Below, in pieces: positions 4,237 through 61,098 of a stretch of 64,000 nt of DNA. A model generated the notes under the pieces. The model did not search any database. It was not told the origin of the DNA and was given only the letters and a program-made list of their open reading frames with translations. A program made the translations under genes and the position numbers. Position 1 is the stretch's first letter. Each line of letters starts with the position of its first letter. The DNA comes from Lysobacteraceae bacterium. GTDB lineage: Bacteria; Pseudomonadota; Gammaproteobacteria; Xanthomonadales; Ahniellaceae. The stretch lies in NCBI GenBank assembly GCA_021299185.1, contig JAJTHZ010000067.1, forward strand, positions 62,001 through 126,000. Reading direction: 5' to 3'.

Positions 4237-4684
4237 GGCGTGCCTCCTTGTTCGTCGCTTCGATTTCATCACGTGCGGCCTCGGGATGCCAGCGGCCTTC
4301 GGCGGTGAAAAATCCGTCGAGAACGTCGCTGATGGTGAGGCTCTGCGGTCCGGGACGCCTTTGCACGGCCCGCGGGCGCGGCCCGAGACCCGCGCGACCG
4401 GCCCACGGGATGGCTCCCACTGAGGGAATCGACGGTCTCAGCGCGATTCAGGACCAACAAATCGTGTTCGCGGCGCGCTGCCGATGGCCGCCGAGAAACC
4501 TCCGGGGTACATCATGGGCGAAACCCGTGGTCAGCAGTGCGCATTGACGAGCGACCCGACGCGGACTCGGAAGCGAACGCTGCGCCGAGGTCGCGGCAAC
4601 ATGGCTTCCGCGACCGTTCCTGTGGCGAGGACACGGCCGGCGCACCGTGCCCGTCGCGGTGCGATCCCGACGGATACGCTGCCG
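4237..4684. other. 448-nt gene-free interval
   Basis: This stretch lies between the 5' end of the yccA-like gene and the 3' end of the TIGR03032-like gene, both on the minus strand. It should hold the yccA-like promoter and the terminator of the gene behind it. Open frames exist on both strands, but none has a plausible start, ribosome site and amino-acid composition. I see no clear promoter consensus or strong hairpin. Confidence 0.4.
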
Positions 4685-5737: not shown

Positions 5738-5829
5738 GCAAGGCCCTTGTGCTTTGGCATGCGGCAAGTCTAGCCGCGCGTCGCATTGGCCTTGTAGGAT
5801 CGGGCCACCTCATCGGACGAGACGGATCA

Positions 5830-7851: not shown

Positions 7852-8099
7852 GCGTTCGGCGGCTTGACGTAGGCAGCGCGCCGCCGCTCGCGCCGGCGAC
7901 CTGACGCGCGTTCGGTGGGGCAGGACGGGCTCGCGCGCTAGGTGGAAGAGACGAAGGCGAGACGGTGAGAGGCCAGCGACGTAGAGGCGATACGCGTCCG
8001 GCGCGCCACTGCCGGGAGGTCCTGGGCGCGCTTTCCCGTTTGGCGCCGGGGGGATCGCGCAGCTATCCTTTTGACGATCGTCCGGCGGAGTGCCAAGGA

Positions 8100-10124: not shown

Positions 10125-10372
10125 GCATTCGGCGGATCGGCGCAGTCAGCGTCCGACCGCCCGTGCCAGCGATCGACGCACACTCGGTGTTTGGGATGGC
10201 CTCGCTCGCCGGGCGGCGCTGGAACGTTCGCGGGCGGGGCGAGACGGGCAGATCGAGTCGTAGGTCCTCTGGCACGCCGGTGCCAGCAGATTCGGGGCGA
10301 TCGGATGAATCTCGTACGAGCGCGGCCCAATCAGGTACCTTTTGGGGCGTTCGACGGCCATAGAGCTTAAGG

Positions 10373-12394
10373 ATGAAAAGAATCGTCGCTCCACGAGGCC
10401 TCCTGGCTCGCGCCATCGCAACGGCGCTGGCGGCCGTGCCGGTCATTCTGCTGCCGAATGCTGCCGCTGCCGAAGACGTTGACCTCGGCAACCTCGGTGA
10501 CCGCGGGTTCCGCATCGACGGCATCGATGCCAGTGAGCGCTCGGGTTACAGCGTCTCCGGCGCCGGCGATGTCAATGGCGATGGGCTTGCGGATCTGGTC
10601 GTCGGCGCGTTGTCCGCCGACCCCGGCGGCGACGTCTCTGCAGGCGAGACCTACGTGGTGTTCGGCAAGACCGGCAGCACGGTGGTCGATCTGGCCAATC
10701 TCGGCAGTGGCGGCTTCCGGATCGAAGGCATCGATGCCGGCGACTCATCGGGCGTCAGCGTCTCCGGCGCGGGCGATGTCAATGGCGATGGCCTCGGGGA
10801 CATAATCATTGGCGCATTCACTGCCGGCTCCGGCGAGAACCTGTTTGCCGGCGAGAGTTACGTGGTGTTCGGCAAGACCGACAACAGGACGGTCGATCTT
10901 GGCAATCTCGGCGCGGGAGGCTTCCGGATCGACGGTATCGATGCTCGCGACAACTCTGGCCGCAGCGTCTCCGGCGCGGGCGATGTCAATGGCGACGGCC
11001 TCGCCGACCTGATCGTCGGCGCAGGCGGCGCCGACTCGGGCAGTGGCGGAGGTGTCGGCGAGAGTTACGTCGTCTTCGGCAAGACCAGCAGCACGGTGGT
11101 CGATCCGGCCAATCTCGGCAGTGGCGGCTTCCGGATCGAAGGCATCGATGGCGGCGACTCATCGGGCGGCAGCGTCTCCGGCGCTGGCGATGTCAATGGC
11201 GACGGCCTCGCCGACCTGATCCTCGGCGCGTATGGCGCCGACCCCGGCGGAGACGGCTATGCCGGCGAGAGCTACGTCGTGTTCGGCAAGGCCAGCAACA
11301 CGGCGGTCGATCTCGGCAACCTCGGCGCAGGAGGCTTCCGCATTGAAGGCATCGCTGCAGGTGACCGTTCTGGCCGCAGTGTCGCCGGCGCGGGCGATGT
11401 CAACGGCGATGGCCTGGCCGACCTGATCCTCGGCGCGTATCGCGCGAACCGGGACCGCGTCTTCAGGGCTGGGGAAAGCTACGTCGTGTTCGGCAAGGCG
11501 AGCAACGGAGCGGTCGATCTCGCCAACCTTGGCAGCGGAGGCTTCCGCATTGTCGGCATCGATCCATATGACCACTCGGGCTTCAGCGTCTCCGGAGCGG
11601 GCGACGTCGACGGCGATGGCCTGGCCGACCTGATCGTTGGGGCGTACCGCGGCGACCCCGGCGGCGTGGCCACTGCCGGCGAGAGCTACGTCGTGTTCGG
11701 CAAGTTCAGCAGCACGGCGGTCGATCTGAGCGCGCTCGGCAGCGGTGGTTTCCGCATCAATGGATACGATGTGCAGGATTACTCGGGCTTCAGCGTGTCC
11801 GGCGCGGGCGATGTCAACGGCGATGGCCTGGCCGACCTCCTCGTCGGCGCTTATCGCGCCGCCCCCGGCGGAGACGCCCTTGCCGGCCAGACGTACGTGG
11901 TGTTCAGTGCCTCGGCGCCCCCGCTCGATGCCACCTACCGCGCACGCAGTCGCGACGGTAATCCGCCGCGGACTGCCGTCGGCATCACTGGAGATGGCAG
12001 CAACGACAGCACCCCCGATGCGCGGTTCTGGGTTGATTTCGCGGATGGTGATGACCCGGCCGCCGCGGCCTCGATCGAGACCGTGACACTCACCCGGTCC
12101 AACGGAGGCTTCGCGGGGGCGGCGGCGAACGTGTCCTGGCAGCTGCAGACCACCCGCCAAGGCTGGACGTCTGCCGAGGTCAAGGTGCGCTACCTCGACA
12201 GTGAGCTGACGGTCACTGACGAAAGCTCGCTGGAACTGGTCTTCTCACCAACCGGAAGCGCGCCGTTTGCGCCACTGCCCAGCGTGGTGAATCCGCTCGA
12301 CAACACGATCAGCACCACGATCCCACAGGCGGGCTTTCTCTATCTTCGCGACTTCAGCATTTTCGCCAACGACTTCGAGGCGCCACCGCCCTGA
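10373..12394 (+). CDS. Secreted FG-GAP repeat protein 3 (seven-bladed propeller)
   Basis: The third tandem paralogue has 673 residues, the same length as copy 1. A signal peptide runs to about NAAAAE. Seven FG-GAP repeats follow with intact DVNGDGLAD-type loops; blade six has DVDGDGLAD. The C-terminal domain starts at ATYRARSRDG and ends IFANDFEAPPP, so the DGFE tail of the other copies has become NDFE. The 248-nt gap before it equals the gap before copy 2, and both gaps carry a related leader just upstream of the start (TAxCCTTTT followed by a GC-rich stretch). Gene and promoter were therefore duplicated together. Function is unknown beyond the extracellular propeller inference. Confidence 0.88.
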   Translation: MKRIVAPRGLLARAIATALAAVPVILLPNAAAAEDVDLGNLGDRGFRIDGIDASERSGYSVSGAGDVNGDGLADLVVGALSADPGGDVSAGETYVVFGKTGSTVVDLANLGSGGFRIEGIDAGDSSGVSVSGAGDVNGDGLGDIIIGAFTAGSGENLFAGESYVVFGKTDNRTVDLGNLGAGGFRIDGIDARDNSGRSVSGAGDVNGDGLADLIVGAGGADSGSGGGVGESYVVFGKTSSTVVDPANLGSGGFRIEGIDGGDSSGGSVSGAGDVNGDGLADLILGAYGADPGGDGYAGESYVVFGKASNTAVDLGNLGAGGFRIEGIAAGDRSGRSVAGAGDVNGDGLADLILGAYRANRDRVFRAGESYVVFGKASNGAVDLANLGSGGFRIVGIDPYDHSGFSVSGAGDVDGDGLADLIVGAYRGDPGGVATAGESYVVFGKFSSTAVDLSALGSGGFRINGYDVQDYSGFSVSGAGDVNGDGLADLLVGAYRAAPGGDALAGQTYVVFSASAPPLDATYRARSRDGNPPRTAVGITGDGSNDSTPDARFWVDFADGDDPAAAASIETVTLTRSNGGFAGAAANVSWQLQTTRQGWTSAEVKVRYLDSELTVTDESSLELVFSPTGSAPFAPLPSVVNPLDNTISTTIPQAGFLYLRDFSIFANDFEAPPP

Positions 12395-12609
12395 GCCATT
12401 TGGGTGTTTGCCCAGACCGGCCGCGTCTGCCGCAGTCCCTTGTCTGCGGCCTCATCTCGGCGGCTCAAGGCAGGCAGCGCGGCAGAGTGGAGCTGACCTG
12501 ACGGTGCGCGTCGAAAACGCGCATGGCCGTCGGCGCGCAGCGCCGAGAGCTTGGACGGCGCGAGGCACTGGAGCTGCCATCGCCCCGTTAGGGCATCATA
12601 TGGTCTTCC

Positions 12610-15133
<2,524 letters not shown>

Positions 15134-15144
15134 TGCCGGCCCAT

Positions 15145-15206
15145 GCCCCGGCGGCGGGTGCCGCCGGGGCCAGCGTCCGCGACCGGCCGCCGGGCCGGTC
15201 GCGGAC
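15145..15206 (+). terminator. Tandem 3' hairpins after katG
   Basis: Two perfect GC hairpins follow the katG stop. The first is 15145-15155 with 15160-15170 (11-bp stem, 4-nt loop). The second is 15175-15187 with 15194-15206 (13-bp stem, 6-nt loop). There is no U-tract, so this is an RNA stabiliser or atypical terminator rather than a classical intrinsic one. Confidence 0.5.
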
Positions 15207-15284
15207 GTGCGGGGCCCGGCGTCGATTTGCTATGGTCCGCACAGTCGCCGGCGGGGTGCCGGCATGTGTTCCGAGGACGGACCC

Positions 15285-15569
15285 GTGGCTGCACCGGATG
15301 AACGCGTCGAACTGATCCGCCAACGCATCACCGCGGCCCTTGCGCCGTCGAGCCTGTCCGTGACCGACGACAGCCACCGGCACGCCGGGCACGAGGGCGC
15401 GCGCGACGGGCGCGGCCACTTCACGGTCGACATCGTGTCGTCCGCCTTCGACGGGCGCGCGCCCCTGGCGCGCCATCGGATGGTCTATGCCGCGCTCGGC
15501 GAACTGATGGCCACCGACATCCATGCGCTGGCGATCCGCGCGCGGACGCCGGGTGAGGCCGCCTCGTGA
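15285..15569 (+). CDS. bolA: BolA family protein
   Basis: A small (94-residue) protein of the BolA/IbaG family, which pairs with monothiol glutaredoxins in iron-sulfur trafficking and affects stress morphology. The hallmark core is clear: SLSVTDDSHRHAGH, then GHFTVDIVS, then LARHRMVYAALGELMATDIHALAI. This includes the conserved histidines and the helix ending in the invariant HAL. The GTG at 15285 has GAGGA 7 nt upstream. An ATG at 15264 would add seven residues and is the alternative. It stands alone between katG and smc. Confidence 0.9.
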   Translation: MAAPDERVELIRQRITAALAPSSLSVTDDSHRHAGHEGARDGRGHFTVDIVSSAFDGRAPLARHRMVYAALGELMATDIHALAIRARTPGEAAS

Positions 15570-15745: not shown

Positions 15746-18700
15746 ATGCGCCTGTCCTCCATCAAGCTGTCCGGCTTCAAGAGCTTCGTCGACCCGACCA
15801 CGCTCCACCTGCCGACCAACCTCACCGGCATCGTCGGCCCGAACGGCTGCGGCAAGTCGAACATCATCGACGCCATCCGCTGGGTGATGGGCGAGAGCGC
15901 GGCCAGCCGCCTGCGTGGCGATGCAATCACCGACGTGATCTTCTCCGGCTCCGGCAGCCGCAAGCCGGTCGGCACCGCCACGGTCGAACTGATCTTCGAC
16001 AACAGCGACGGCCTGGTCGGCGGCGAGTACGCTGGCTTCGCCGAGATCTCGGTCAAGCGCACGGTCAGCCGCGACGGCCAGTCGAGCTACTTCCTCAACG
16101 GCGGCCGCTGCCGCCGGCGCGACATCATCGACGTGTTCCTCGGCACCGGTCTCGGCGCGCGGTCCTATTCGATCATCGAGCAGGGCATGATCTCGCAGAT
16201 CGTCGAGGCCCGGCCGGAGGAACTGCGCACGCACCTGGAGGAAGCCGCCGGCATCTCCAAGTACAAGGAGCGCCGCAAGGAGACCGAATCGCGCATCAAG
16301 TCGACGCGCGAGAACCTGGAGCGCCTGAACGACGTGCGGCAGGAGGTCGAGAAGAACCTCGACCACCTCAACCGCCAGGCCCGCGCCGCCGAGCGCTGGC
16401 AGAAGCTGAAGGCCGAGTCGGCGCGGGTCGAGGCCGAACTGAAGGCACTGTCGCTCAAGGCGCAGGAGATGGAGCTCGATGCGCGCGGCGCCGCGCTGCG
16501 CGAGAGCGAGAGCGAAATCGAGCGCATCACCGCCGAGCAGCGCGCCGTCGAGGCCCAGCTCGAGACCTTCCGCGACCGCCAGATCGCCGCCAGCGACCGC
16601 TTCAACGCGGTGCAGGCCGAGGTCTACCGGGTCGGCGGCGAGATCGCCCGCGTCGAGCAGCAGATCCAGCACAACAAGGACCTCGCCGAGCGTCTTCAGC
16701 ACGCCGCGCGCGAGACCGAATCGCAACTGGCCGAACTCACCGGCCACCTGCTCGGCGACCGCGGCCAGATCGAGGAGATGACGCTGGCGCTGGAAGAGGC
16801 CACGCCGCGCATCGAGGCACTGGAGGCCGAGGCCGAATCGCGCAGCGAGGCGCTGCGGCTGGCCGAGCAGTCGCTGGCCGACTGGCAGGTGCGCTGGGAT
16901 GCCTACGCCAAGGACAGCGGCGAGGCCGCACGCCTGTCCGAGGTCGAACGCACGCGGCTGGACTACCTCGATCGGCAGGCCCTGGAGATCGCCCGCCGCC
17001 TGGAGCAGCTGGAAGCCGAACGTGCGCAGGCCGACGTGGCGAAGATCGGCGAGGCCGCGGGCCTGCTCGATGCCGAGCAGGACACCCAGCGCGAGCGCGT
17101 CGAGACGCTGACCACGTCGCTGGACGAGCGCAAGCGCCATCTGGAGCAACTGACCGAACAGCGCAACGCCGCGCAGGCCGAGCTGTCGCGCTGCCGCCAG
17201 GCGATGGAGTCGGCGAAGGGCCGGCTCGCCTCGCTGGAGGCGCTGCAGCACGCCGCACTCGGGCAGGAGAAGGGCGAGGCGAAGGAGTGGCTGGAACGCA
17301 TCGGCCTCGGCGGCCGGCGCCGGCTCGGCGAGGCGCTGGAAGTGGCCGACGGCTGGGAGCGCGCGGTCGAGACCGTGCTCGGCGGCGTGCTCGACGGTGT
17401 ACTGGTCGACGGCCCGCACGACTTCGCCGACCGCTTCGGCGAACTCGGGCAGGCCAACGTCAGTCTCTTCGCGGATGCAGCGGGGGGCAGTGGCGCGGTC
17501 GGCACCCTGGCCGCCAACGTGCGCGGCCCGGCGGCCGTGCTGGCCCTGCTGTCGAAGGTGCGCACCGCCGAAAGCCTCGGCCAGGCGCGCGGTCTCGCGC
17601 GTCGCCTCGCACCCGGCGAGTCGGTCATCACCCCATCCGGCGAGTGGCTCGGCGCCGACTGGGCGCGGATCAGCCGCGGCAGCGCCGCGCAGCAGGGCGT
17701 GATCGCGCGCGAGCGCGAGATCCACGCCGCGACCGCCGAGCGCGACGCGCAGGAAGCCCGCTCGCAGGCGCTGCTGGAGCGCCTCGACCAGTTGAAGTCC
17801 GAGTCCGGCGACGCCGAGATTTCGCGCGACGACGCCCAGCGCGAGCTGTATGCCGCGCACCGCCGCCTGTCCGAGATCGCCGGCCAGCTGCAGAGCCACC
17901 AGGGACGCCTGGAGGCCGCGCGCCAGCGCAGCGCCCGCATCGAGCAGGAAACCGGCGAACTGCGCACGCGCCTGGCCGAGGTCGAGGAGCAGACCCGCGA
18001 ATCGCGGCGCCAGCTCGACGCCTCGGTCGGCCGCATGGGCGACCTCGAGGCCGACCGCACGCGCCTCGACGCCGAGCGGCGCAGCCTGCTGGAGCGCCGC
18101 GAGGAGGCGCGCATCGATGCCCGCGAGGCGCGCGAACAGGCCCATGCGGTGTCGCTGCAGGTCGAGTCGCGCCGCGCCGCGCTGCGCGCGCTGGAGCAGT
18201 CGGTGGCGCGGATGGACACCCAGCAGCGCGCGCTGTCCTCGCGCGCGCAGGAAATCGCCGACCAGCTCGCCACCGGTGGCGAGCCGATGGACCGCCTGGA
18301 CGCCGAGCGCCGCACCTACCTCGACCAGCGCCTGCTGGTCGACAAGGAACTGGTCGAGGCGCGCAAGGCGCTGGACGAGCTCGACGCCGAGACGCGCCAG
18401 TACGACACCGAGCGCCACCGCATCGAACGCGCGCTGGCCGAGGCGCGCGAGCGGCTGTCGGCGCAGCGGCTGGAAGAGCAGGGCACGCGCCTGCGCGCCG
18501 GCCAGCTGGCCGAGGCGATCGCTGCCGCCGGCTTCGACGCGCAGGCGGTGATCGCGGAACTCCCGCCCGAGGCCGATGCCGAATCGTGGCAGTCGCGCCA
18601 TGTCGACCTGGAGGCGAAGATCAAGCGCCTCGAGCCGGTCAACCTCGCCGCGATCAGCGAACACGCCGAGCAGAGCGAGCGCAAGAACTACCTCGACGCG

Positions 18701-52171: not shown

Positions 52172-52260
52172 GCCCGGGTGGCGAAATCGGTAGCCGCAGG
52201 GGACTTAAAATCCTCCGGCCCGCAAGGGCCATGCCGGTTCGAGTCCGGCCCCGGGCACCA
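52172..52260 (+). tRNA. tRNA-Leu (UAA), integration target of the 8.8-kb element
   Basis: An 89-nt class II tRNA with acceptor GCCCGGG/CCCGGGC, discriminator A and CCA. The anticodon loop CTTAAAA has anticodon TAA. A long variable arm (TCCGGCCCGCAAGGGCCA region) is present. Its 3' part from 52203 is repeated at 61041-61098, so the tRNA gene serves as the attachment site and remains intact after insertion. Confidence 0.97.
52203..52260 (+). other. attL (within tRNA-Leu 3' end)
   Basis: Left copy of the 58-bp attachment repeat. It spans the anticodon loop to the CCA of tRNA-Leu. It differs from the right copy only at 52209 (A here, G at 61047). The 51 nt from 52210 to 52260 are identical to 61048-61098, so strand exchange took place to the right of position 52209. 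Confidence 0.92.
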
Positions 52261-52321
52261 ATGTAATCAACGGGTTGCGGCGGCATTTGACCGGCCACCG
52301 CGGCGCGCGCAAACTGGCCTC

Positions 52322-52338
52322 GGGACAAGCTCGGGACA
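52322..52338 (+). promoter_or_regulatory. Putative left arm-type integrase sites (GGGACA pair)
   Basis: Two GGGACA hexamers start at 52322 and 52333, 11 nt apart, between attL and the integrase start. A matching pair with the same 11-nt spacing sits near the right end (60928, 60939). Equal spacing at both ends suggests arm-type binding sites, or operators shared with int control. Confidence 0.5.
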
Positions 52339-52348
52339 GTGACGCGGC

Positions 52349-53464
52349 ATGGCGACGATCACGCGGCGAGTAGGGCGCACGGGGCGCGTCACCTGGCAGG
52401 CGAAGGTTCGCCCGCTCGGCGAGCTGCCGCGCTCGCGCACGTTCGCCCGCAAAGCCGACGCCGACGCCTGGGCGAAGGCGATCGAAACCGACCTCGCGCG
52501 CGGGCTCGTAGTGCCCACGACCGCCGACCGGCGCCGCACGGTGTCCGACCTGATCGACGAATACCTGCGCGACGCGCTGCCGCGCACGAGCACCGCGAGG
52601 GCATACCGGCGGCAATTGGAATGGTGGCGCGCGCAGGTCGGCGCGCTGGCAATCGAGAAACTCACGCCGGCCGCAATCGCCGACGCGCGCGCGAAGCTGA
52701 TGCGGCCCGACGCCGATGGAACCAAGCGCAAGTCGGCGACCGTGAACCGCTACCTCGCCGCGCTCAGCGCCGCCTGCAAATGGGGATGGAAGGAACGCCG
52801 CTGGCTGCCGCGGAATCCCGTCCTAGACATCGCCAAGGGCCGCGAGTCGCCCGGCGTGGTCCGGTTCCTCACCGAGCCGGAGCGCGCCGCGCTGATGACC
52901 GCTGCGCGCGCCAGCGACGATCCCAACATCTACACCGCGCTGATCCTCGCACTCGCCACCGGCGCGCGTTACGCGAACGTCCGCGGTCTCACGGTCGACG
53001 ACGTGGCGATCGACCGCACGGCGCTGCGATTCACGACGACCAAGAACGGGCAGGGGCGATGGGTGCCGCTGATTCCTGCCGCGCGTGCGCAACTGGCGGC
53101 GCACCTGGAGCGACACCCGACCGGCGAGGGCTGGCTATTCCCGGGCTGGCGCAACGATTCGCCCGCAGACCTGGACAAGGCCTGGCGCAAGGTCCGCACC
53201 GCAGCCGCGAAGGTGGAGCCCACGCTCGCGACCTTCCGCTGGCACGACCTGCGCCACACGACCGCTACCTACCTCCTCGAGGCCGGAGCGAGCACGATCG
53301 AGATTGCCGCGGCACTCGGGCACAAGACGCTGGCAATGGCGCAGCGCTACGCGCACCAATCGCCCGCCTTTGCGCGCGAGACGTTCAACCGCCTGGCCGA
53401 CCGGCTAGGCGACCTACAAACCGACGCCGGCGGCACCGGCGAAGCGGCGCCGACCCGGACGTGA
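52349..53464 (+). CDS. int: Tyrosine recombinase (phage-type integrase)
   Basis: A 371-residue site-specific recombinase that would integrate and excise the element at tRNA-Leu. An N-terminal arm-binding beta region (MATITRRVGRTGRVTWQAKV) precedes a SAM-like core-binding domain (TVSDLIDEYLRD... to about 165). The catalytic domain has Arg I in ATGARYANVRGL, Lys in TTKNGQGRWVPL, the H-x-x-R box WHDLRHTTATYLLEAG, and the His/Tyr end LGHKTLAMAQRYAH. The catalytic set is complete. The acidic residue after Arg I that is usual (Glu/Asp) is Asn here. The gene sits directly next to attL and reads into the element. Confidence 0.93.
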   Translation: MATITRRVGRTGRVTWQAKVRPLGELPRSRTFARKADADAWAKAIETDLARGLVVPTTADRRRTVSDLIDEYLRDALPRTSTARAYRRQLEWWRAQVGALAIEKLTPAAIADARAKLMRPDADGTKRKSATVNRYLAALSAACKWGWKERRWLPRNPVLDIAKGRESPGVVRFLTEPERAALMTAARASDDPNIYTALILALATGARYANVRGLTVDDVAIDRTALRFTTTKNGQGRWVPLIPAARAQLAAHLERHPTGEGWLFPGWRNDSPADLDKAWRKVRTAAAKVEPTLATFRWHDLRHTTATYLLEAGASTIEIAAALGHKTLAMAQRYAHQSPAFARETFNRLADRLGDLQTDAGGTGEAAPTRT

Positions 53465-53509
53465 CCCGGGCCGGCGCCTTCCACAACCGAAACGCTGGAG
53501 GTTTCGATC

Positions 53510-53818
53510 ATGGTCAACGGGAATCGTAGCGAGTTTGAGCGCTTCATCGTCGCGGTGGCTGGCCGCACGCCCGAAGCGATGGTGGCCGAGCTGCCGGATG
53601 CCGGCGCGCGCGACCTGGCGCGGCGGCTGTGCGAGGATCGCCGCGACCTCGCCCGGCAGTCGGCCGCGCTGGCGCACGCGCTGGTGCACGCGCGTGGTGA
53701 GCTGGACGCACACGAGGTCGAGGCGATCGCCTGGTGCTTGCGGGATTTGGCGCAGCGCGCCGAGTTCTGCAACGACCTGCAGGTCCTGGTCGACAACCGC
53801 CTCGACCGGGCCGCGTGA
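53510..53818 (+). CDS. Element protein of unknown function (102 aa)
   Basis: A 102-residue, helix-rich, charged protein (MVNGNRSEFERFIVAVAGRT...). It has runs such as ARDLARRLCEDRRDLARQSA that suggest a helical bundle or coiled coil. No motif that I recognise. GGAGG lies 8 nt before the ATG at 53510, which supports translation. Its stop overlaps the GTG of the next gene. An early-region regulatory role is possible from position only. Confidence 0.7.
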   Translation: MVNGNRSEFERFIVAVAGRTPEAMVAELPDAGARDLARRLCEDRRDLARQSAALAHALVHARGELDAHEVEAIAWCLRDLAQRAEFCNDLQVLVDNRLDRAA

Positions 53819-54456
53819 AGCGGGCCAACCCGCGCTGGCGTGACGCGGTCGCGCGGCTGCGCGTGGGCATCAGCGGCTGGCGGATGCCGGTTGGCGATGC
53901 GCCATGCAGCCTAAGCGCCGAGGACCTGGAGCGCCTCGACCGGGTCCTCGACGCGATCCTGACCGCCAAGTCGGCCGAGGCCGCCGGCGCCGGCATGCTG
54001 GCCGCCGTGGGCATCCCGCGCGCGCGCAGGCCCCGCAGGTCACTTGCCAAAACGGCAAGTGACCTGCGGGGCCTGCGCGACCGCCTGTACGCCGACTTCA
54101 CTTTCAGCGACAGCTACACCGTCCCGCTGGTCGAGGTGCTGGACGCTATCGCCGCGGGCGGCACTGCACGCGCGATCGGCGAGCGCGTGCTGGCGTTGTT
54201 CGGCGCACCTGGTGGCCGTGGTCGCCGACCGTCGCGCGCCATCGCGCAACAGGATGCGTTGGCCGCTGCACAAGGCCAGTACGAGTATTGGCTCCACGTC
54301 GTCGACGACGACGAGCGCGCCTACATGGAAGTCAAGCGCCTTTACCGTGCCGGCCGCACCGTGGCCGAGATCGCCTTTGCCGTCCGCTGGCCGGTCGACC
54401 GCGTGGTCGCCGCGTTGGAACCGATCTTCGGCAAGGTCAGTAACGCGCCCACGTAA
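53815..54456 (+). CDS. Element protein with C-terminal HTH-like segment (213 aa)
   Basis: A 213-residue protein from a GTG overlapping the previous stop. The N-terminal part (residues 1-68) is helical. Residues about 70-88 are encoded by a long perfect palindrome (54023-54079). The C-terminal segment YMEVKRLYRAGRTVAEIAFA followed by VRWPVDRVVAAL looks like a sigma-region-4 or resolvase-type helix-turn-helix. I do not recognise the family. The palindrome may be an insertion that the gene has accommodated, since the reading frame continues. A DNA-binding regulator is the best guess. Confidence 0.6.
   Translation: MKRANPRWRDAVARLRVGISGWRMPVGDAPCSLSAEDLERLDRVLDAILTAKSAEAAGAGMLAAVGIPRARRPRRSLAKTASDLRGLRDRLYADFTFSDSYTVPLVEVLDAIAAGGTARAIGERVLALFGAPGGRGRRPSRAIAQQDALAAAQGQYEYWLHVVDDDERAYMEVKRLYRAGRTVAEIAFAVRWPVDRVVAALEPIFGKVSNAPT
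54023..54079. repeat. Perfect 26-bp inverted repeat inside the 213-aa gene
   Basis: Arm 54023-54048 and arm 54054-54079 are exact reverse complements (26 bp) with a 5-nt loop AAAAC. The core reads CAGGTCACTTGCC / GGCAAGTGACCTG. A perfect stem of this length inside a coding region is far beyond chance and is the strongest cruciform in the element. Confidence 0.9.
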
Positions 54457-54551
54457 TTCCGATTTTCTCCGACCTCACCCGCGCACCAAGCGGCGCGCGC
54501 TTAGCACTATTGCCCAACGTCGGCCATCCGCGGCCGGGTTGGGAGCACGGC

Positions 54552-54767
54552 ATGCAACAGCGAACCTTGAAGGACGTGGCGGGTTTTGCCGCCACGGCCG
54601 GCTTTACCGAGGCGCAGCTCCGGTGGTGGATCCACAACGCCGAAGGGAACGGCCTCGCGCGCGCTGGCGCCATCGTGCGAATCCAGCGCCGCGTTTACAT
54701 CGACGCCGATCGGTTCTGGCATTGGGTCGATTCCGGCGCGGCGGCCGGTCGCCGGAGCGCCGCATGA
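54552..54767 (+). CDS. Small HTH DNA-binding protein (excisionase/AlpA-like)
   Basis: A 71-residue protein from the ATG at 54552, which has GGGAG about 7 nt upstream. It reads TLKDVAGFAATAGFTEAQLR, then WWIHNAEGNGLARAGAIVRI and RRVYIDADRFWHWVD. This has the shape of a MerR-type winged helix: the recognition helix near TEAQLRWWIHN, a wing with a basic hairpin, then a terminal helix. Such proteins serve as excisionase (AlpA/Xis) or replication activators in P4-like islands. Which role applies here cannot be read. Confidence 0.65.
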   Translation: MQQRTLKDVAGFAATAGFTEAQLRWWIHNAEGNGLARAGAIVRIQRRVYIDADRFWHWVDSGAAAGRRSAA

Positions 54768-55009
54768 CGACCGCGAGCAGCTTGCCGGCGCTGCCGGCAA
54801 CCGCTGCCGCCCTGGCGGACCACGCGCGGCAGGCTGCGGCGCTTGCCGAGCAATTCCGCAACCAGCCGTCGCGCGAGTCGCTCGATGCGTTTCTCGCAAC
54901 CAGCCGTGGCGCAACAATGGCAGCGCTGCGCGCTGCGCGGATGCTGCGCGGCGATCCGCTGCCACCGACGCCCGGCGAGCCGCCCGCGCGCAGCCGGCGG
55001 GCCGCCTGA
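54764..55009 (+). CDS. Element protein of unknown function (81 aa)
   Basis: An 81-residue Ala-rich helical protein. Its ATG overlaps the previous stop (ATGA) and its TGA overlaps the next ATG (TGATG), so it is embedded in a tightly coupled replication operon. The N-terminal 55 residues form one or two amphipathic helices; the tail (PLPPTPGEPPARSRR) is Pro/Arg-rich and probably disordered. No family recognised. Confidence 0.65.
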   Translation: MTTASSLPALPATAAALADHARQAAALAEQFRNQPSRESLDAFLATSRGATMAALRAARMLRGDPLPPTPGEPPARSRRAA

Positions 55010-55491
55010 TGGCGCGACCGATCGACCTCGTGTTGTCGCGGCTGCCGCGCGCCAAGAAGGCCGGCGCGGGCTGGCGAGCGCCGTGCCCGAACTGCGGGCC
55101 GGACTCGAAGTCGGAAAAGCTCGCCGTCACCGAGGGCGACGATGGACGCGTGCTGCTTCACTGCTTTGCCGGCTGCGCGCCGGCTGCCGTCCTGGCTGCG
55201 GTCGGGTTGGCGGTCGCGGACCTGTTCGACCGGCCGACAGCCGCGGCCGACGCGAGCCCCGCCGAGCGGCGACTGCGCCGCGTCGAGCTGGAGCTCGCCG
55301 ACGTGCGCGCTGCTGCCGCGGCGCTCGACCTCGAAGCGGTGGTGCTCGAAGTCGCGGCCGAGCAAATCGCCGACGGCCGTCCGCTCGCCGGACCGGATCG
55401 CGAGCGCCTGACGCTCGCACATCGCCGCATCGGCGACGTGCTGCTGCGCCTGCGCGCCGCGCACGCGCGCCGGCCGAGGGCTGCCGCATGA
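55009..55491 (+). CDS. CHC2-like zinc-finger (primase zinc-ribbon) protein
   Basis: A 160-residue protein. Residues 23-55 form a primase-type zinc ribbon: CPNCG, then KSEKLAVTEGDDGRVLLHCF with AGC. This gives the C-x2-C ... H-C-x3-C pattern of DnaG/P4-alpha zinc-binding domains. The remaining 100 residues are Ala/Leu/Glu-rich and helical, without the Toprim catalytic core. It overlaps the SF3 helicase start (ATGA). In P4 alpha, primase and helicase are one chain; here the zinc finger is on a separate protein and no catalytic primase domain is visible. It may load or regulate the helicase, or help a host primase. Confidence 0.75.
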   Translation: MARPIDLVLSRLPRAKKAGAGWRAPCPNCGPDSKSEKLAVTEGDDGRVLLHCFAGCAPAAVLAAVGLAVADLFDRPTAAADASPAERRLRRVELELADVRAAAAALDLEAVVLEVAAEQIADGRPLAGPDRERLTLAHRRIGDVLLRLRAAHARRPRAAA

Positions 55492-56873
55492 CCGACGGAC
55501 CTGCCCGCGTGGTGTCATTGGCCGAGCGCGCCGAGCAACGGCAGGCGGAGGGCCTCGATGTGAAGCGGCCGCTCGATGCGGCGCGGCTGTTGCGCGAGCG
55601 GGCGAAGGTTGGCGGCTGGCACGGCATCGCCAACGTGGCGGGTGGGTTCTACGAATGGGACGGCGAGTGCTGGCGCCCGCTGCCGCAGCCCCGGCTAGAT
55701 GCGCGCATCTACGCAATGCTTGAACAGGCGGCCGCGCCGGCGCATCGTCGATCCGTCGGCGACGTAGTGCATGCGCTCGCGGCGCTGTCGTTCGTTCCTG
55801 GCGCGCCGCCGTTCTGGATGCCGGGCGCCGAAGGCCCGGACCCGCTTGACCTGGTGCCGCTGCGGAACGGGCTCTACCACCCCGCAGCGAAGAAGCTCTA
55901 TCCCCACACGCCGGCGCTGTTCAACGTCAGCGCGGCGCCGGTTTCGTTCGACCCCGACGCGACATGCCCGCGGTGGGAGCGGTTCGTGGGCGAGGCGATC
56001 CCGGACGCGGACAGCCGGCGCGCGCTGCAACAGTTCATGGGCGTGCTGGTGTGCAGCCGAACGACGAAGTATCAGCGCGCGCTCACGATGATCGGACCGC
56101 CGCGAAGCGGAAAGGGCGTGATTCAGCGCACGATCACCGCGCTTGTTGGCCGCGATGCCGTGGCCGCGCCGACGTTCGATGAACTCGGCGGCCGATTCGG
56201 CCTGAGCGGGCTGATCGGCAAAACGGTTGCCACCATCACCGACGCTCGCATTGTGCCCGGCGATCAAGGGCGCGGCGCGCTGCAGAAGTTCCTCGCACTC
56301 ACTGGCGAGGATCACGTGCAGGTCGAGATGAAGTACGGCCCGCCGCAGACCATGCGGCTGCCCGTGCGCTTGTTGATCGCAAGCAATGATGTGCCCGTGT
56401 TCCGTGACGCCAGCTCGGCGGCGACGGCGCGGCTGCTGCTGATCCGCAGTGGCGCGTCGCACGTCGGCACCGAGTCGCTAGACCTCGAGGATGAACTCGC
56501 GGCGGAATTGCCTGGCATCTTCAACTGGTGTGCCGCGGGGCTCGCGGACCTTGAGGGATGCGGGCGGTTCGTTCAGCCCGCCGACGGGCAGGCGCTGCTC
56601 GATGAGCTGCGCGATGCCAGCAGCCCGATCGGCGCATTCGTGCGCGAGCGCTGCGAGCTGCGGCCCGATGAGTGGATCGCCAAGGCTTCGATCTTCAACG
56701 CTTGGTGCGACTGGTGCCGCGAGGAAGGGCGCAACCCTGGAGAGCTTGCAGCGTTCGCCCGCGCGCTTCACGCGGCAGCGCCCGGCATTTCAGCGACCCG
56801 TGGCCGCGATGAAAACGGCAAGCGCTACCAGCGCTTCAACGGCATCCGCCTTGCGCTGGAGCCCGGCCCGTGA
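55488..56873 (+). CDS. SF3 helicase, phage/plasmid primase P4 family (DUF5906-type)
   Basis: A 461-residue replication protein. The N-terminal region (residues about 60-160) resembles the D5/P4 N-domain (LVPLRNGLYHPAAKKLYPHT with FNVSAAPVSFDPDATCPRW). The SF3 helicase core has Walker A IGPPRSGKGVIQRT at about residue 204, a Walker-B-like acidic strand near KTVATITDARI, and motif C LLIASNDVPVFRDAS with the sensor Asn. A C-terminal winged-helix region ends the protein. It probably opens the origin and unwinds DNA. An iteron array lies directly after its stop, as expected for an origin-binding helicase such as P4 alpha. Confidence 0.88.
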   Translation: MTDGPARVVSLAERAEQRQAEGLDVKRPLDAARLLRERAKVGGWHGIANVAGGFYEWDGECWRPLPQPRLDARIYAMLEQAAAPAHRRSVGDVVHALAALSFVPGAPPFWMPGAEGPDPLDLVPLRNGLYHPAAKKLYPHTPALFNVSAAPVSFDPDATCPRWERFVGEAIPDADSRRALQQFMGVLVCSRTTKYQRALTMIGPPRSGKGVIQRTITALVGRDAVAAPTFDELGGRFGLSGLIGKTVATITDARIVPGDQGRGALQKFLALTGEDHVQVEMKYGPPQTMRLPVRLLIASNDVPVFRDASSAATARLLLIRSGASHVGTESLDLEDELAAELPGIFNWCAAGLADLEGCGRFVQPADGQALLDELRDASSPIGAFVRERCELRPDEWIAKASIFNAWCDWCREEGRNPGELAAFARALHAAAPGISATRGRDENGKRYQRFNGIRLALEPGP

Positions 56874-56884
56874 CCGCCGGCCGC

Positions 56885-57142
56885 GGTCAGGGGTCGGGTC
56901 AGGGCGTGGTCAGGGGGACGCCGGCCAGAACCGCCCGTTTTCGCCTTCACGGTCAGGGTGGTCAGGGTGGTCAGGGTGGATCGGCACTACTTCCTGCGTA
57001 CCCCATGCGCCGCTTTCCGGTGGGCTCTGCTGTTTCTTTCAAGGTTTGCCATCGGACCCCTGACCACCCTGACCAGCCCGCGCCGCACAAGGGTTTGCGG
57101 GGTGTCTCGACCCCTGACCTACCCCTGACCCGACCCCTGACC
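56885..57142. other. Candidate replication origin: dyad-symmetric GGTCAGGG iterons
   Basis: Eleven copies of GGTCAGGG lie in a 387-nt gap. Six are direct, starting at 56885, 56897, 56908, 56951, 56960 and 56969. Five are inverted (CCCTGACC), starting at 57058, 57067, 57112, 57123 and 57135. The spacing is mirror-symmetric: 12, 11, then 43, 9, 9 on the left; 9, 45, 11, 12 on the right. The centre near 57013 holds a less GC-rich patch (TGTTTCTTTCAAGG). The position next to the SF3 helicase gene and the iteron symmetry fit an origin. The gap has no gene that I can support. Confidence 0.75.
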
Positions 57143-57260
57143 CGACGGGCCGGGCGGCTGCTTAGGTACTTCCTGGGCTTCGCCTGGTGCGGGTGGAACA
57201 GGCGCAGGAGCCGCGTAGGTAGCGCCCCTGCTGCGAAGGTTGCCCCGTTGAGGTTGCGCG

Positions 57261-58004
57261 ATGACACACACCCCTGAAAAACCCGACTTCGAGCCCGAGG
57301 ACGATGCGCTGTCAACCGATCGGCCGGACGGGCTGTTTCCCACCGCGCTTGACGACGTGCGACTCACGCAGGCGCAGCTCGGCGACCTGCTCGGCGTGAG
57401 CCGGCAAGCCGTCGGCAAGCAGGTGAAGCGCGGCGCCTTGCGCGTCGATCCCGATGGATTGATGCCAGCGCGTCGCGCCCTGGCTGACTGGCGCCGGAAC
57501 GTCGATCCGAGCCGCACGCGCGCACGCTTCAACGCCCGCCGCCCTAGCGCAACCGACCCGGCGCTGATCCAGCGCCTTGAGGCGATCGAGCGCCGGCTCG
57601 CCGAGGACTTGGGCGAGATGCTCGGCGACGATGGCGCGGCGCCTGGCAGCCTCGCCGCCGCGCGGGCCGACCTGGTGCGGGTGCAGCTCGAACGGGCGCG
57701 GTTCCTCGCGGAGCGCGAGCGGCGCGAATGGATTCGCGTCGCCGAGGTCGATGAAGCCCTGGCGCACTTCGCCGCCATCATGCGCGGCGCCATCATGGAT
57801 CTCCCGGGGCGCATCGCCTACGCGCTGAGCCTCGAAGGCGATGCCGCGCAGCTCGCGCACAACCTGGTGCACGAAACGACCCACGCCTGGCAGTGGGAGC
57901 TCGCCCGCGCTCTGGCGCGCCTGAACCCGAACGGCGAGCCGATCCCAGGCGATCCCCTGCACGCCTCGCCGCCGAACGGGAGCGGGGAGGGCGGCGCCGA
58001 ATGA
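57261..58004 (+). CDS. Terminase small subunit candidate (Nu1-like HTH protein)
   Basis: A 247-residue protein. Residues about 33-58 form a winged-helix DNA-binding motif (VRLTQAQLGDLLGVSRQAVG then KQVKRGALRVD) like Nu1-type small terminases and DUF1441 proteins. Residues about 95-180 are a charged coiled-coil region (LEAIERRLAEDLGEM..., VRVQLERARFLAERERREWI), which would give oligomerisation. GAGG precedes the ATG at 57261. The position directly ahead of the capsid region supports a packaging role, such as recognising the element's own DNA. A plain regulatory HTH protein is the alternative. No large terminase gene follows. Confidence 0.6.
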   Translation: MTHTPEKPDFEPEDDALSTDRPDGLFPTALDDVRLTQAQLGDLLGVSRQAVGKQVKRGALRVDPDGLMPARRALADWRRNVDPSRTRARFNARRPSATDPALIQRLEAIERRLAEDLGEMLGDDGAAPGSLAAARADLVRVQLERARFLAERERREWIRVAEVDEALAHFAAIMRGAIMDLPGRIAYALSLEGDAAQLAHNLVHETTHAWQWELARALARLNPNGEPIPGDPLHASPPNGSGEGGAE

Positions 58005-58441
58005 CCGAAGCGCGCGCCGCCGAGCTGTTGCGCTGCGCGATCGAGGGCCGCGAGCCCGAGGCCGTGGCGCGGTGGCTGGGTGGCGCACTGTCGGCGCTGC
58101 TGCGCGGCGAAGCCGACAAGCTGGGGCACGCGCTCGGGCTGCCCGGCACAGCGCTGCGCGCTGCGCTGGCGTCCGAACGCGAGCGGGCACGCGCCGTTTC
58201 GTACGGACTGCAGGACGCGGCAGCCGGCGCAGTCGCGCGCCTGGCGGATGACCTGGCCGACGGCTGCGCCGCGCTCGCGGAGCGCCACACGGCGGGCCGC
58301 CTGCGGCGTGCGGTGGCATCGGGCGCCCTGGCGTGGCTGATCAACCGCGAGGCCGCGCGCTGCGGGCTGTATGGCCTGGCGGACGCGCTCGGGAAAGTAG
58401 GTCGATCAAATGATCGACCTACTTTCGACGACGACGCATGA
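58001..58441 (+). CDS. Element protein of unknown function (146 aa)
   Basis: A 146-residue Ala/Leu/Arg-rich helical protein whose ATG overlaps the previous stop (ATGA). It begins MTEARAAELLRCAIEGREPE. Regularly spaced Leu/Ala suggest a helical bundle. No recognised domain or membrane segment. Residues near the C-terminus (KVGRSNDRPTFDDDA) are encoded by a perfect palindrome (58393-58426). A minor head or scaffolding role is possible from position only. Confidence 0.6.
   Translation: MTEARAAELLRCAIEGREPEAVARWLGGALSALLRGEADKLGHALGLPGTALRAALASERERARAVSYGLQDAAAGAVARLADDLADGCAALAERHTAGRLRRAVASGALAWLINREAARCGLYGLADALGKVGRSNDRPTFDDDA
58393..58426. repeat. Perfect 16-bp palindrome near the end of the 146-aa gene
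   Basis: GAAAGTAGGTCGATCA (58393-58408) and its exact reverse complement (58411-58426) are separated by AA. It is AT-richer than its surroundings and lies 13 nt before the gene's stop. It could be an RNA stem, a protein-binding dyad ahead of the next genes, or an inserted repeat. Confidence 0.85.
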
Positions 58442-58444
58442 CCG

Positions 58445-58918
58445 ATGCGCGCCCCGTTCGCCACCGCAGCCGATCTTGCACGGGGGGAGGGCGCCATCGA
58501 TGGCGCTGCCGCCGCGTGGATTCGGGATGGCCTGCGCGCATGGCTGGCGACGGGTGGTGCTGTCCCGCTCCATCGATGCCTGGAGCTGCCGGGCAGTATT
58601 CGCGCCGGCCGGCTGGCTCGCCGCGACGCGCTGATAGCCGAAGCCGCGGCGGAGTTGTCCGCAAGCCTTGGGCCGTACCAGCGCGCGGGCGCCCTGGCGG
58701 CCGTGATCGCTGAAAGCGGCCACCATCGCGCTGCGATGCGAAGGGGGCGCGCCGGGCAGTGGGCGCGTGGGCTGGTGATCGGCCTGCTGTTTGAAGCCGA
58801 GCAATTTGCCGAACTGCCGACTACGACGAAACAACTGCGCAACATCCTGCGCCGCACCGAAACGGAAACCGAAAGCGGCTTCGGCGATTCGCTGGCACGC
58901 TCAGAAATCCAAACATGA
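58445..58918 (+). CDS. Element protein of unknown function (157 aa)
   Basis: A 157-residue protein starting 3 nt after the previous stop. It is helical with short hydrophobic stretches (LVIGLLFEAEQFAEL) and an Arg-rich middle (HHRAAMRRGRAGQWARG). The C-terminal TTTKQLRNILRRTETETESG is polar. No recognised family. It immediately precedes the capsid gene, the slot where phages often carry a portal, protease or scaffold. It is much too short for a portal and shows no Ser protease motif. Confidence 0.6.
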   Translation: MRAPFATAADLARGEGAIDGAAAAWIRDGLRAWLATGGAVPLHRCLELPGSIRAGRLARRDALIAEAAAELSASLGPYQRAGALAAVIAESGHHRAAMRRGRAGQWARGLVIGLLFEAEQFAELPTTTKQLRNILRRTETETESGFGDSLARSEIQT

Positions 58919-58930
58919 AAGGAAACCCCA

Positions 58931-60055
58931 ATGAGCCACGCGCTCGAAATGCACTACGAACGAAAAGTACGCGAGCTGGCCGAAGTCGAGCGCGCGCTCG
59001 GCGCACGCGAAAAGGATCGGATCTCGCTCGGCAACGCGCTTGATGCCCTGCGCCATGGGAAGCCCGACCTGGCGTCGCGTGAGCGCGACTACTCCGAGTC
59101 GCTGCAATATGCACACAATCTTCCGCCGCTCGGCGCGCACTCGATGTACTTTTCGTGGCGCGGGATCGCCGCGTGCCTGGGCGATGGCATCCTGCCCCGC
59201 GGCCGCCGTGACCTCGGCACCACGCCCACGTCTGCCGGTGGCGCGCTCGTCACCACGCAGTTGCACGACGAAATCGCGGACGCGCTTCGGCCGTTTTCGG
59301 CGGCCTACCGACTGGGCGCAACTTCGGTGCCGCTGACCGGCGGGCAGGTGGGCGTGCCGCGAATCAACACCACTACCACGGGGGCGTGGCTCGGCAGCGA
59401 AACGACACCCGCACCCGAGAGCCAGCCCGTGCTCGGACAGATTGCGTTGTCGCCGAAAACCGCTGCGACCTACGTCGAATCGTCCCGGCAATTGCGCATC
59501 CAGAGCGGCCAAGCCGGCGAGCGCATGATCGCACTGGATTTGATGCGTGCGGTTGGCTCGCTCGTGGATGTGGCGGTGTTCGCTGGCTCCGGCGCGTCCG
59601 GTCAACCGTTGGGACTGGCCAACACCGCGGGCGTGACCGCGATTTCCGGCGGCACGCTGAATCGCGGGGGGTTGCTCGAACTTCAGCGCCGCGTGGCCGC
59701 TGCGAACGGGATCACCAACGCGGCGACCATCGGCTACGCGACCACGCCGCAGGTTGCCGAAATACTGGCCAACCGCGCTGTTGTCGCCAGTTCGGACGTG
59801 AGCGCTTGGCAAGGCAACCTCGCCGAGGGCACCGCAGCCGGTGCGCTGGCTGTCACCAGCACCGGCGTGCCGGCGGGCGTGGTTGCATTCGGCGATTGGA
59901 GCCAGTGCCTAGTCGCATCCTGGGGCGTTTTGCGAATCGAAGTGAATCCGACCGCGAATTTCCCGGCCGGGGTCGTCGGCTATCGCGCGTTTCTGGATGC
60001 CGATGTCGGCTTCCGGCAGACCGGCAGTTTTTGCCTCGCGACGGCGACGACGTAA
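58931..60055 (+). CDS. HK97-fold phage major capsid protein
   Basis: A 374-residue capsid protein. Residues about 1-90 are charged and helical, the delta/scaffold region of HK97-type capsids. The fold starts near LGTTPTSAGGALVTTQLHDE. The P-domain and E-loop region follow (AAYRLGATSVPLTGGQVGVP with TGAWLGSETTPAPESQPVLG), then LSPKTAATYVESSRQLRIQS and the SLVDVAVFAGSGASGQPLGL segment diagnostic of the family. The end GYRAFLDADVGFRQTGSFCL is the usual C-terminal strand. AAAGGAAA precedes the ATG. No protease gene is nearby, so maturation would need a helper enzyme or not occur. Confidence 0.88.
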   Translation: MSHALEMHYERKVRELAEVERALGAREKDRISLGNALDALRHGKPDLASRERDYSESLQYAHNLPPLGAHSMYFSWRGIAACLGDGILPRGRRDLGTTPTSAGGALVTTQLHDEIADALRPFSAAYRLGATSVPLTGGQVGVPRINTTTTGAWLGSETTPAPESQPVLGQIALSPKTAATYVESSRQLRIQSGQAGERMIALDLMRAVGSLVDVAVFAGSGASGQPLGLANTAGVTAISGGTLNRGGLLELQRRVAAANGITNAATIGYATTPQVAEILANRAVVASSDVSAWQGNLAEGTAAGALAVTSTGVPAGVVAFGDWSQCLVASWGVLRIEVNPTANFPAGVVGYRAFLDADVGFRQTGSFCLATATT

Positions 60056-60363
60056 TGGCACCGGCAACGGTTCTGATCCGCGCGCGGCGCGCGCTGCATA
60101 CTGACGGCCGAACCGTCGCGCCTGGCGATGTGGCGCGGATGCCGGTCGAGAGCGCGCTCGCAGGCATCGCCTGCGGGCAACTCGAAATCATCGGCCCCGA
60201 GGCGGTCGGCGTCATCGTGCGGCCATGCTTGATCGGCGACAACCACGCGCCGCGGTGGCGATTGGTCTACTGTCGCCGGCTGCTGGCGCGGCTTGTGCGC
60301 CTTGACCTGGCGCGCGCATTCGCAACCCCTCGCCGCCGTTCCGCGAGGGCGGCCCGCGCCTAG
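60055..60363 (+). CDS. Small element protein downstream of the capsid gene (102 aa)
   Basis: A 102-residue protein whose ATG overlaps the capsid stop (TAATG). Residues 1-55 (VLIRARRALHTDGRTVAPGD, then VARMPVESALAGIACGQLEI) form a beta-rich unit that resembles small phage proteins encoded after capsid genes. The rest is Arg-rich (RRLLARLVRLDLARAF...) and basic to the end. A decoration or head-completion role is possible. The basic tail may instead be read-through of a degraded end. Confidence 0.55.
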   Translation: MAPATVLIRARRALHTDGRTVAPGDVARMPVESALAGIACGQLEIIGPEAVGVIVRPCLIGDNHAPRWRLVYCRRLLARLVRLDLARAFATPRRRSARAARA

Positions 60364-60419
60364 GCGTAACGCGCGGCCGCGCGCGCGGCACCAATAGGAC
60401 CTCCCCGGCCGCGCCGGGT

Positions 60420-60868
60420 TGCACCCCGCCGCTCACGGGGTGCATGCAGCGCGGGGCGTGGCCGGCACGCTGTTGATAGTCCGGAGCGTGAGCCGCGGCG
60501 TGGAAATCAGCGGCGAGCGGCGGCCCGCCGATCCTGGCAATGGGATCGGCGGGCCGGCGGGTTGATCCGTTATTCGGCGAGGCATCGAGCCCGCCGCCGA
60601 ATCCCGTGTAAGCGGTTTCCTACACGCCCCCTAGCGCTTGCCCTACACGCTGACGCTGACGCTGCGCTCGCCGCTGGCTTCCTGGGAGGCGCGGCGGCAC
60701 GATGGTGTCGCACGATTCGACACCTTCGCTCCGCGAGGGATGCCGAACACCACGCGCCGGACATCAAAGTCGCACGATGCGACTTTGAAGCTGTCCGACC
60801 TGGGGAGTTGTCCCCGATCGGCAAGCGTGGAAAACGTCGAAAGATGCGACGTTTTCCACGCTTGCCGA
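60420..60868 (+). ncRNA. Stem-loop array at the right end of the element (possible RNA or binding sites)
   Basis: Five perfect hairpins: 60420-60444 (9-bp stem, 7-nt loop), 60521-60556 (14 bp, 8 nt), 60704-60724 (7 bp, 7 nt), 60764-60788 (9 bp, 7 nt) and 60818-60868 (22 bp, 7 nt). The last three share the core GTCG-loop-CGAC with loops CACGATT, CACGATG and AAAGATG. A repeated stem end and loop with changing outer stems suggests compensatory evolution of structured RNA or of dyad sites. Whether it is transcribed is unknown. No U-tract follows any stem. Confidence 0.45.
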
Positions 60869-60927
60869 CATGGGGCTGAGCGCGGTGACCGCGGCACCTC
60901 GCCGGGCACGAGACGGGCAGGGCGCTT

Positions 60928-60963
60928 GGGACAAATTTGGGACAGTGAACCCGCCTCGGGACA
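60928..60963 (+). promoter_or_regulatory. Putative right arm-type integrase sites (GGGACA triplet)
   Basis: GGGACA starts at 60928, 60939 and 60958. The first two have the same 11-nt spacing as the left-end pair (52322, 52333), and the surroundings also match (GGGACA, four nt, then the second GGGACAGTGA). They lie about 80-110 nt inside the right att. Confidence 0.5.
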
Positions 60964-61040
60964 GCAACAGCCAACAACCGGCGCACTCTACGCCATTGAA
61001 TACATTGGCTATCAACACCCCGCAATAACTGCCTAGCCCA

Positions 61041-61098
61041 ACTTAAGATCCTCCGGCCCGCAAGGGCCATGCCGGTTCGAGTCCGGCCCCGGGCACCA
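61041..61098 (+). other. attR (tRNA-Leu 3' fragment copy)
   Basis: Right copy of the attachment repeat. It lacks the 5' half of the tRNA and so is not a gene. It carries G at 61047 where the intact tRNA has A at position 37. That fits the left part of attR being element-derived (attP) and the right part being the displaced original tRNA 3' end. Confidence 0.92.

Follow-up and report, generated by a model that had tools for sequence, protein, structure and literature searches.

The 64-kb window analysed here, which is the whole stretch of DNA presented above, comes from a Lysobacteraceae bacterium, probably of the order Lysobacterales, and contains an 8.8-kb island, very probably a phage satellite, inserted at a tRNA-Leu(taa) gene. 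The island lies between two direct repeats that are identical at 57 of 58 positions and 8,838 nt apart, the left copy being the 3' part of the tRNA gene (Table 1). Twelve densely packed genes are found between them, all on the + strand and with the integrase pointing inwards. They follow the order int, o2, o3, an AlpA-like candidate, o5, a primase half, a helicase, a cluster of iterons, terS (terminase small subunit, TerS), o9, o10, mcp (major capsid protein, MCP) and o12. Neighbouring frames overlap in GTGA (o2/o3), ATGA (alpA/o5, primase/helicase and terS/o9), TGATG (o5/primase) and TAATG (mcp/o12). A sequence-only reading of this DNA had listed 58-bp attachment (att) repeats at tRNA-Leu, an integrase, a superfamily 3 (SF3) helicase, iterons, a Nu1-like protein and an HK97-type capsid protein, all of which are borne out by repeat identity, profile matches or counts. 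The tight overlaps that it held against random decay are real and count here against a deletion remnant. The absence that it reported also holds among the island proteins scanned: portal, protease, large terminase (TerL), tail and lysis families gave no match with Pfam, TIGRFAM-type models or PHROGs, o2 and o12 lying outside the PHROG scan. A precise empty site is not demonstrable, as relatives do not share the right flank.

The capsid protein matches PF05065 (1.3e-24), TIGR01554 (1.9e-23) and PHROG_617 (3.9e-38). The last is a protease-MCP family, and the alignment is confined to its capsid half (positions 341-624 of 626). The capsid domain is complete and preceded by an N-terminal region of about 95 residues, and the protease is absent. 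The phage relatives of the protein (VP882, phiHAP-1, Persinger and Alexa) have 600-680 residues, with a protease-like N-terminal part before the capsid domain. The island thus carries the equivalent of the capsid half of a VP882-type protease-MCP fusion. VP882-type phages have the order TerS, TerL, gpW, portal, protease-MCP; the island has TerS, o9, o10, MCP. The gene is single-copy, with no other match in the 4.84-Mb host assembly at E<=0.001. For the TerS candidate, PHROG_57 (terminase small subunit) matches at 9.7e-17 and Pfam DUF1441 at 1.5e-3, the latter below the cut-off of that family; a search against phage records gave no match. The o10 protein matches the island L029, described below, by tblastn (30% identity, 8e-8), is alignable with its counterparts in L026 and L029 and has a weaker match in L055; a proposed homologue in the contig L012 was rejected by hhalign. 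Searches of IMG/VR with the MCP, TerS, the o10 profile and the MCP of genome G236 returned nothing, and a scan of genome contigs matched a single one, that of G253 (Lysobacteraceae bacterium PS02065). AlphaFold models of o10 (pLDDT 57) and the MCP (mean pLDDT 39.5) are too poor for use, and the Foldseek matches of o10 are meaningless.

The motif GGTCAGGG occurs 13 times in the window against 2.5 expected, a count reached in none of 100 shuffles. Eleven of the 13 copies fall within 258 bp between the helicase and terS, six on the + strand followed by five on the - strand, and this inverted iteron array is likely to be the replication origin.

The MCP search for related islands covered 300 genomes from the order and 369 from the class; the helicase search covered 399 from the order. 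The absence of portal and TerL from the loci found (L numbers; genomes carry G numbers) was judged by tblastn with references from VP882 and from capsid-forming phage-inducible chromosomal islands (cf-PICIs), by inspection of open reading frames (ORFs) and by PHROG scans of selected ORFs. Full phage modules accompany the MCP in L023, L025, L027 and L062, L065 combines an MCP with TerL-like pieces, L024 and L028 have a cf-PICI-type portal, and L022 was not placed in any class. Portal and TerL were not recognised in the MCP islands L026, L029, L030, L061 and L064, nor probably in L063, which reaches a contig end. L026 (G236) spans 9,021 bp between 48-bp repeats at a tRNA-Val and has an integrase, small genes, a DUF5906 helicase 37-38% identical to that of the window, TerS (PHROG_57, 2e-6), o10 and MCP. 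L029 (G253) covers 14,426 bp between 19-bp repeats at a tRNA-Cys and encodes TerS (PHROG_57, 3e-24), o10, MCP and a tape measure protein (TMP) of 1,047 residues, with no portal or TerL match. In both islands the MCP gene directly follows o10; their hosts belong to other families of the same order, and the TerS-o10-MCP run recurs across three families. L029 also has a C4 antisense RNA that passes the curated threshold, while isrK and c4-a1b1 narrowly miss theirs; the C4 RNA ties the closest relatives of the cassette to the world of P4 and of the Gram-negative PICIs (GN-PICIs). At the right end of the same satellite (16102-18208) there are two lower-GC cargo ORFs, possibly defence genes. L055 has the weaker o10 match, followed by a ClpP-type protease-MCP and then a TMP, in other tRNA islands the MCP is accompanied by TerS, a TMP or both, and L061 matches PHROG_617 across its full length. 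L029, L055, L061 and L064 are all tRNA islands with a capsid protein, fused to a protease or not, and a TMP, and with no recognised portal or TerL.

The helicase search revealed six further carriers, namely G236 again and L115 to L119. L117, L118 and L119 are closely related islands of 9.5-10.2 kb with an integrase, an AlpA-like gene, a DUF5906 helicase, an MCP (PHROG_617), a PHROG_83-type TerS where scanned and a conserved hypothetical protein of about 180 residues. L116 shares helicase and TerS with the window element and has no MCP. The island L115 (G018, 4077-15461) occupies 11,327 bp at the tRNA-Leu(taa) used in the window and has identical 58-bp att repeats, a related helicase (prim-pol/helicase) and a TerL-like gene; no capsid gene was recognised in it. 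The helicase also matches, at 38% identity, a 12-kb cf-PICI-like contig in IMG/VR (L012) with portal, protease, MCP, HNH, TerS and TerL genes. Separately, in G031:C1, from another genome of the order, a tRNA-Cys (1690930) and a tRNA-Leu 3' fragment (1731394) lie about 40 kb apart, which suggests that the same tRNA cluster has received a large insertion there.

Selection on the capsid gene can be followed in L117-L119, where the MCPs share 72-80% identity. The ratio of nonsynonymous to synonymous substitution (dN/dS) is 0.12-0.22 by NG86 and 0.08 by YN00 (one pair computed), and resembles that of the helicase, TerS and integrase. These low ratios mean that a satellite MCP without a portal is maintained by selection in this lineage. 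In the window, the mcp frame has codon-position GC of 0.68/0.56/0.78, the same pattern as the neighbouring genes.

These results bear on whether the island could be what deletion left of a once complete prophage. All its head genes have phage relatives, and the succession TerS ... MCP is that of VP882-like phages with TerL and portal missing between, but several islands at different tRNAs would each have had to undergo the same loss on their own. Moreover, the reading frames are unbroken, overlap at their starts and show a strong codon-position bias, the replication module is of P4/PICI type, the integrase points inwards, the att copies are intact, the relatives are islands of 9-14 kb, and no tail or lysis scraps are left. 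Such a remnant is very improbable. Sequence comparison supports a satellite instead, because the layout recurs without portal or TerL in unrelated islands at other tRNAs and the related MCPs are under purifying selection. The sequence-only reading, which had proposed a satellite-like element, had asked for the same layout in relatives and had named full-length prophages at this site, or a capsid gene free of purifying selection, as signs of a remnant. The layout does recur, at tRNA-Val and tRNA-Cys, and the relative at tRNA-Leu in G018 is no full prophage. Purifying selection is seen in the related satellites; the capsid gene of the window itself is too far from any relative for the same calculation.

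The idea that the element represents an intermediate, new design is not supported, since satellites with an MCP and no head module are known: SaPIbov5 with its Ccm protein, PmCI172 and 21 of 29 reference GN-PICIs (PMC10111431). The TerS plus MCP design is an established one in other satellites, present here as a recurring and apparently undescribed group. The closest known systems are the GN-PICIs EcCICFT073 and PmCI172, which resemble the element in size, att-flanked integration, inward integrase and a primase/DUF5906 module with its own origin, and whose late zone often has an MCP homologue, sometimes terS, and neither a portal nor a tail set (PMC6092414, PMC10111431). GN-PICIs are arranged as int, (alpA), primase and DUF5906 helicase, origin and late zone (PMC10111431). 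The window island agrees, its length falling in the range of about 8-22 kb between att repeats, with the primase/DUF5906 genes beside the origin and a downstream late zone without a tail or lysis set. It differs in its weakly recognisable AlpA, in its MCP, akin to the capsid half of VP882-type fusions, in its host order and in its RNAs: C4/isrK immunity RNAs are reported in several GN-PICIs (PMC10111431), whereas the Rfam scan of the window element found none and C4 appears in its relative L029.

For the capsid gene, the nearest model is Ccm of SaPIbov5, an MCP homologue 24% identical to the helper capsid protein, which takes the pentamers and constrains the heads to a small isometric form (PMC8569155). 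Both elements have an HK97-fold homologue with a delta-like N-terminal region as their sole head protein; SaPIbov5, however, has a Gram-positive host and carries the helper cos site, whereas the window island has its own TerS. The Gram-negative PICI PmCI172, which also has an MCP homologue, likewise makes small heads (PMC6092414). The cf-PICIs share a P4-type primase-helicase with the element (L012) but carry the whole head and packaging set, of which portal, protease and TerL have no match here. P4 shares the SF3 helicase domain, an iteron origin and tRNA integration; in place of sid, psu or delta, not recognised among its proteins scanned, the island has an MCP and TerS. Phage-inducible chromosomal minimalist islands (PICMIs), as defined in PMC10803314, contain no capsid-remodelling or capsid genes, whereas an MCP is present here. 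PLE11 of Vibrio cholerae is a satellite that brings its own TMP and makes a chimeric tail, and other satellites also have putative tmp genes (PMC12987554). It resembles the relatives L029, L055, L061 and L064, where a satellite-encoded virion part would likewise replace that of the helper, and differs from the window element, which has no TMP.

The element is read here, with moderate confidence, as a GN-PICI-like satellite whose TerS would redirect packaging and whose Ccm-like MCP would co-assemble with the helper capsid protein. Its anatomy, homology, att duplication, cassette recurrence and the purifying selection in related satellites are observed, and from these we infer mobilisation, packaging redirection, co-assembly, small heads and the kind of helper. 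In the proposed cycle, a helper phage, probably tailed and with a head module of the VP882/Alexa/Persinger kind, would trigger the island, which the integrase would excise at the tRNA-Leu att site and the helicase would replicate from the iterons. The island TerS would then recruit the helper TerL to satellite DNA, and the MCP, with its delta-like N-terminal region and no protease, would co-assemble with the helper capsid protein in the manner of Ccm, probably yielding heads of smaller size from which helper DNA is excluded. The helper would supply portal, protease, TerL, tail and lysis. By analogy with Ccm and PmCI172, a change of head size through this MCP is plausible, and its most likely role would be in remodelling helper heads, with TerS acting to redirect the TerL of the helper. 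Alternatively, the island MCP might build the whole shell, with the helper supplying only portal, protease, TerL and tail, which would suit its complete capsid domain and N-terminal region. However, neither protease nor portal is encoded, Ccm by itself formed no shells (PMC8569155), and docking to a foreign portal and protease needs a close matching that is hard to reconcile with the divergence from the phage MCPs found. An all-satellite shell is quite improbable.

Several observations weigh against the GN-PICI-like reading given above. The window MCP is just 25-31% identical to any protein found, too distant for dN/dS, and in the MCP tree, where satellite and phage proteins cluster without a clean clade for each, its branch is loosely placed; the helper is therefore uncertain. 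The relationship of the MCP points to a VP882/Alexa-type module, and complete ones exist in the same order and class (the four phage loci named above). GpA-type TerL (GpA ATPase), Phage_portal and Phage_portal_2 were not found in the host assembly, so no resident helper of the expected type turned up there, and the helper is probably external. The AlpA-like candidate stands on an excisionase match at E 0.029 and on its position, and the lack of C4/isrK RNAs counts on the same side. Finally, although the MCP is the commonest GN-PICI late gene, the capsid genes tested, in EcCICFT073, are dispensable for transfer (PMC6092414, PMC10111431). This raises the option that the capsid gene is ornamental or interfering, either a late gene captured from a helper and dispensable for mobilisation, or a decoy subunit that poisons the heads of the helper and produces none of satellite size. 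L116, by sharing helicase and TerS without an MCP, shows the latter to be optional in the family. On the other hand, the selection on the L117-L119 MCPs and the TerS-o10-MCP run in three families indicate that the gene earns its keep, and an ornamental or interfering role seems unlikely.

Beyond the co-assembly reading of this island, it is tentatively possible that a broad, undescribed group of satellites in the Gammaproteobacteria, this element among them, swaps in precisely its own size-setting virion proteins (the capsid protein and, in some, the TMP) together with TerS and borrows everything else, forming chimeric particles with a head size, and in some members a tail length, specified by the satellite. 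The findings extend capsid-carrying satellites to an order, probably Lysobacterales, where literature searches turned up none such, and the recurrence of TerS plus MCP at many tRNA sites makes MCP capture a common strategy. The freshest lead outside the window is provided by the islands with both MCP and TMP, for which PLE11 is the precedent on the TMP side (PMC12987554); they offer a clean test of whether single swapped subunits let satellites dictate head size and tail length.

Table 1. Features of the island and its integration site, in window coordinates.
Feature	Position	Strand	Evidence
tRNA-Leu(taa), integration target	52172..52260	+	ARAGORN, Rfam
attL, 58 bp	52203..52260	+	direct repeat
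Tyrosine integrase, inward	52349..53464	+	PF00589 9e-24, PHROG_1 5e-65
PtaRNA1-like antisense RNA across o2 start codon, sub-threshold	53442..53516	-	42.5 bits vs gathering 47, E 6e-6
o2, 102 aa, hypothetical	53510..53818	+	ORF; no Pfam match
o3, 213 aa, hypothetical; GTG start overlapping o2; 26-bp perfect hairpin inside	53815..54456	+	ORF, codon-position GC 0.74/0.54/0.85
AlpA/excisionase-like small DNA-binding candidate, weak	54552..54767	+	PHROG_9668 excisionase E 0.029; position
o5, 81 aa, hypothetical	54764..55009	+	ORF
Primase N-terminal zinc-finger half	55009..55491	+	PHROG_6088 DNA primase 3e-10
P4-type SF3 (DUF5906) helicase	55488..56873	+	TIGR01613 'primase, P4 family' 1e-41, DUF5906 2e-12, PHROG_6088 5e-59
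Iteron cluster, likely replication origin	56885..57142		6 GGTCAGGG on + facing 5 on -
TerS (Nu1/DUF1441 type)	57261..58004	+	PHROG_57 9.7e-17; same-place PHROG_57 relatives in L026, L029, L116
o9, 146 aa, hypothetical	58001..58441	+	ORF overlapping terS
o10, 157 aa; directly before capsid gene in related satellites too	58445..58918	+	tblastn, alignment
HK97-type MCP, 374 aa	58931..60055	+	PF05065, TIGR01554, PHROG_617 (capsid half only)
o12, 102 aa, hypothetical	60055..60363	+	ORF overlapping mcp
Three perfect hairpins (arms 14, 11, 22), before attR	60521..60868		hairpin search
attR, 58 bp	61041..61098	+	direct repeat

Among the minor features, the Rfam matches to mir-431 and rox1 in the element were discarded as hairpin artefacts. 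The PtaRNA1-like RNA, whose score is below the gathering threshold, aligns with its CAU exactly opposite the ATG of o2, which suggests a type I toxin-antitoxin-like or regulatory pair within the satellite. Perfect hairpins with arms of at least 11 bp are concentrated in the element: five of the eight in the window fall there (54023-54079, 58393-58426, 60521-60556, 60764-60788 and 60818-60868), with arms up to 26 bp, against zero in three mononucleotide shuffles.

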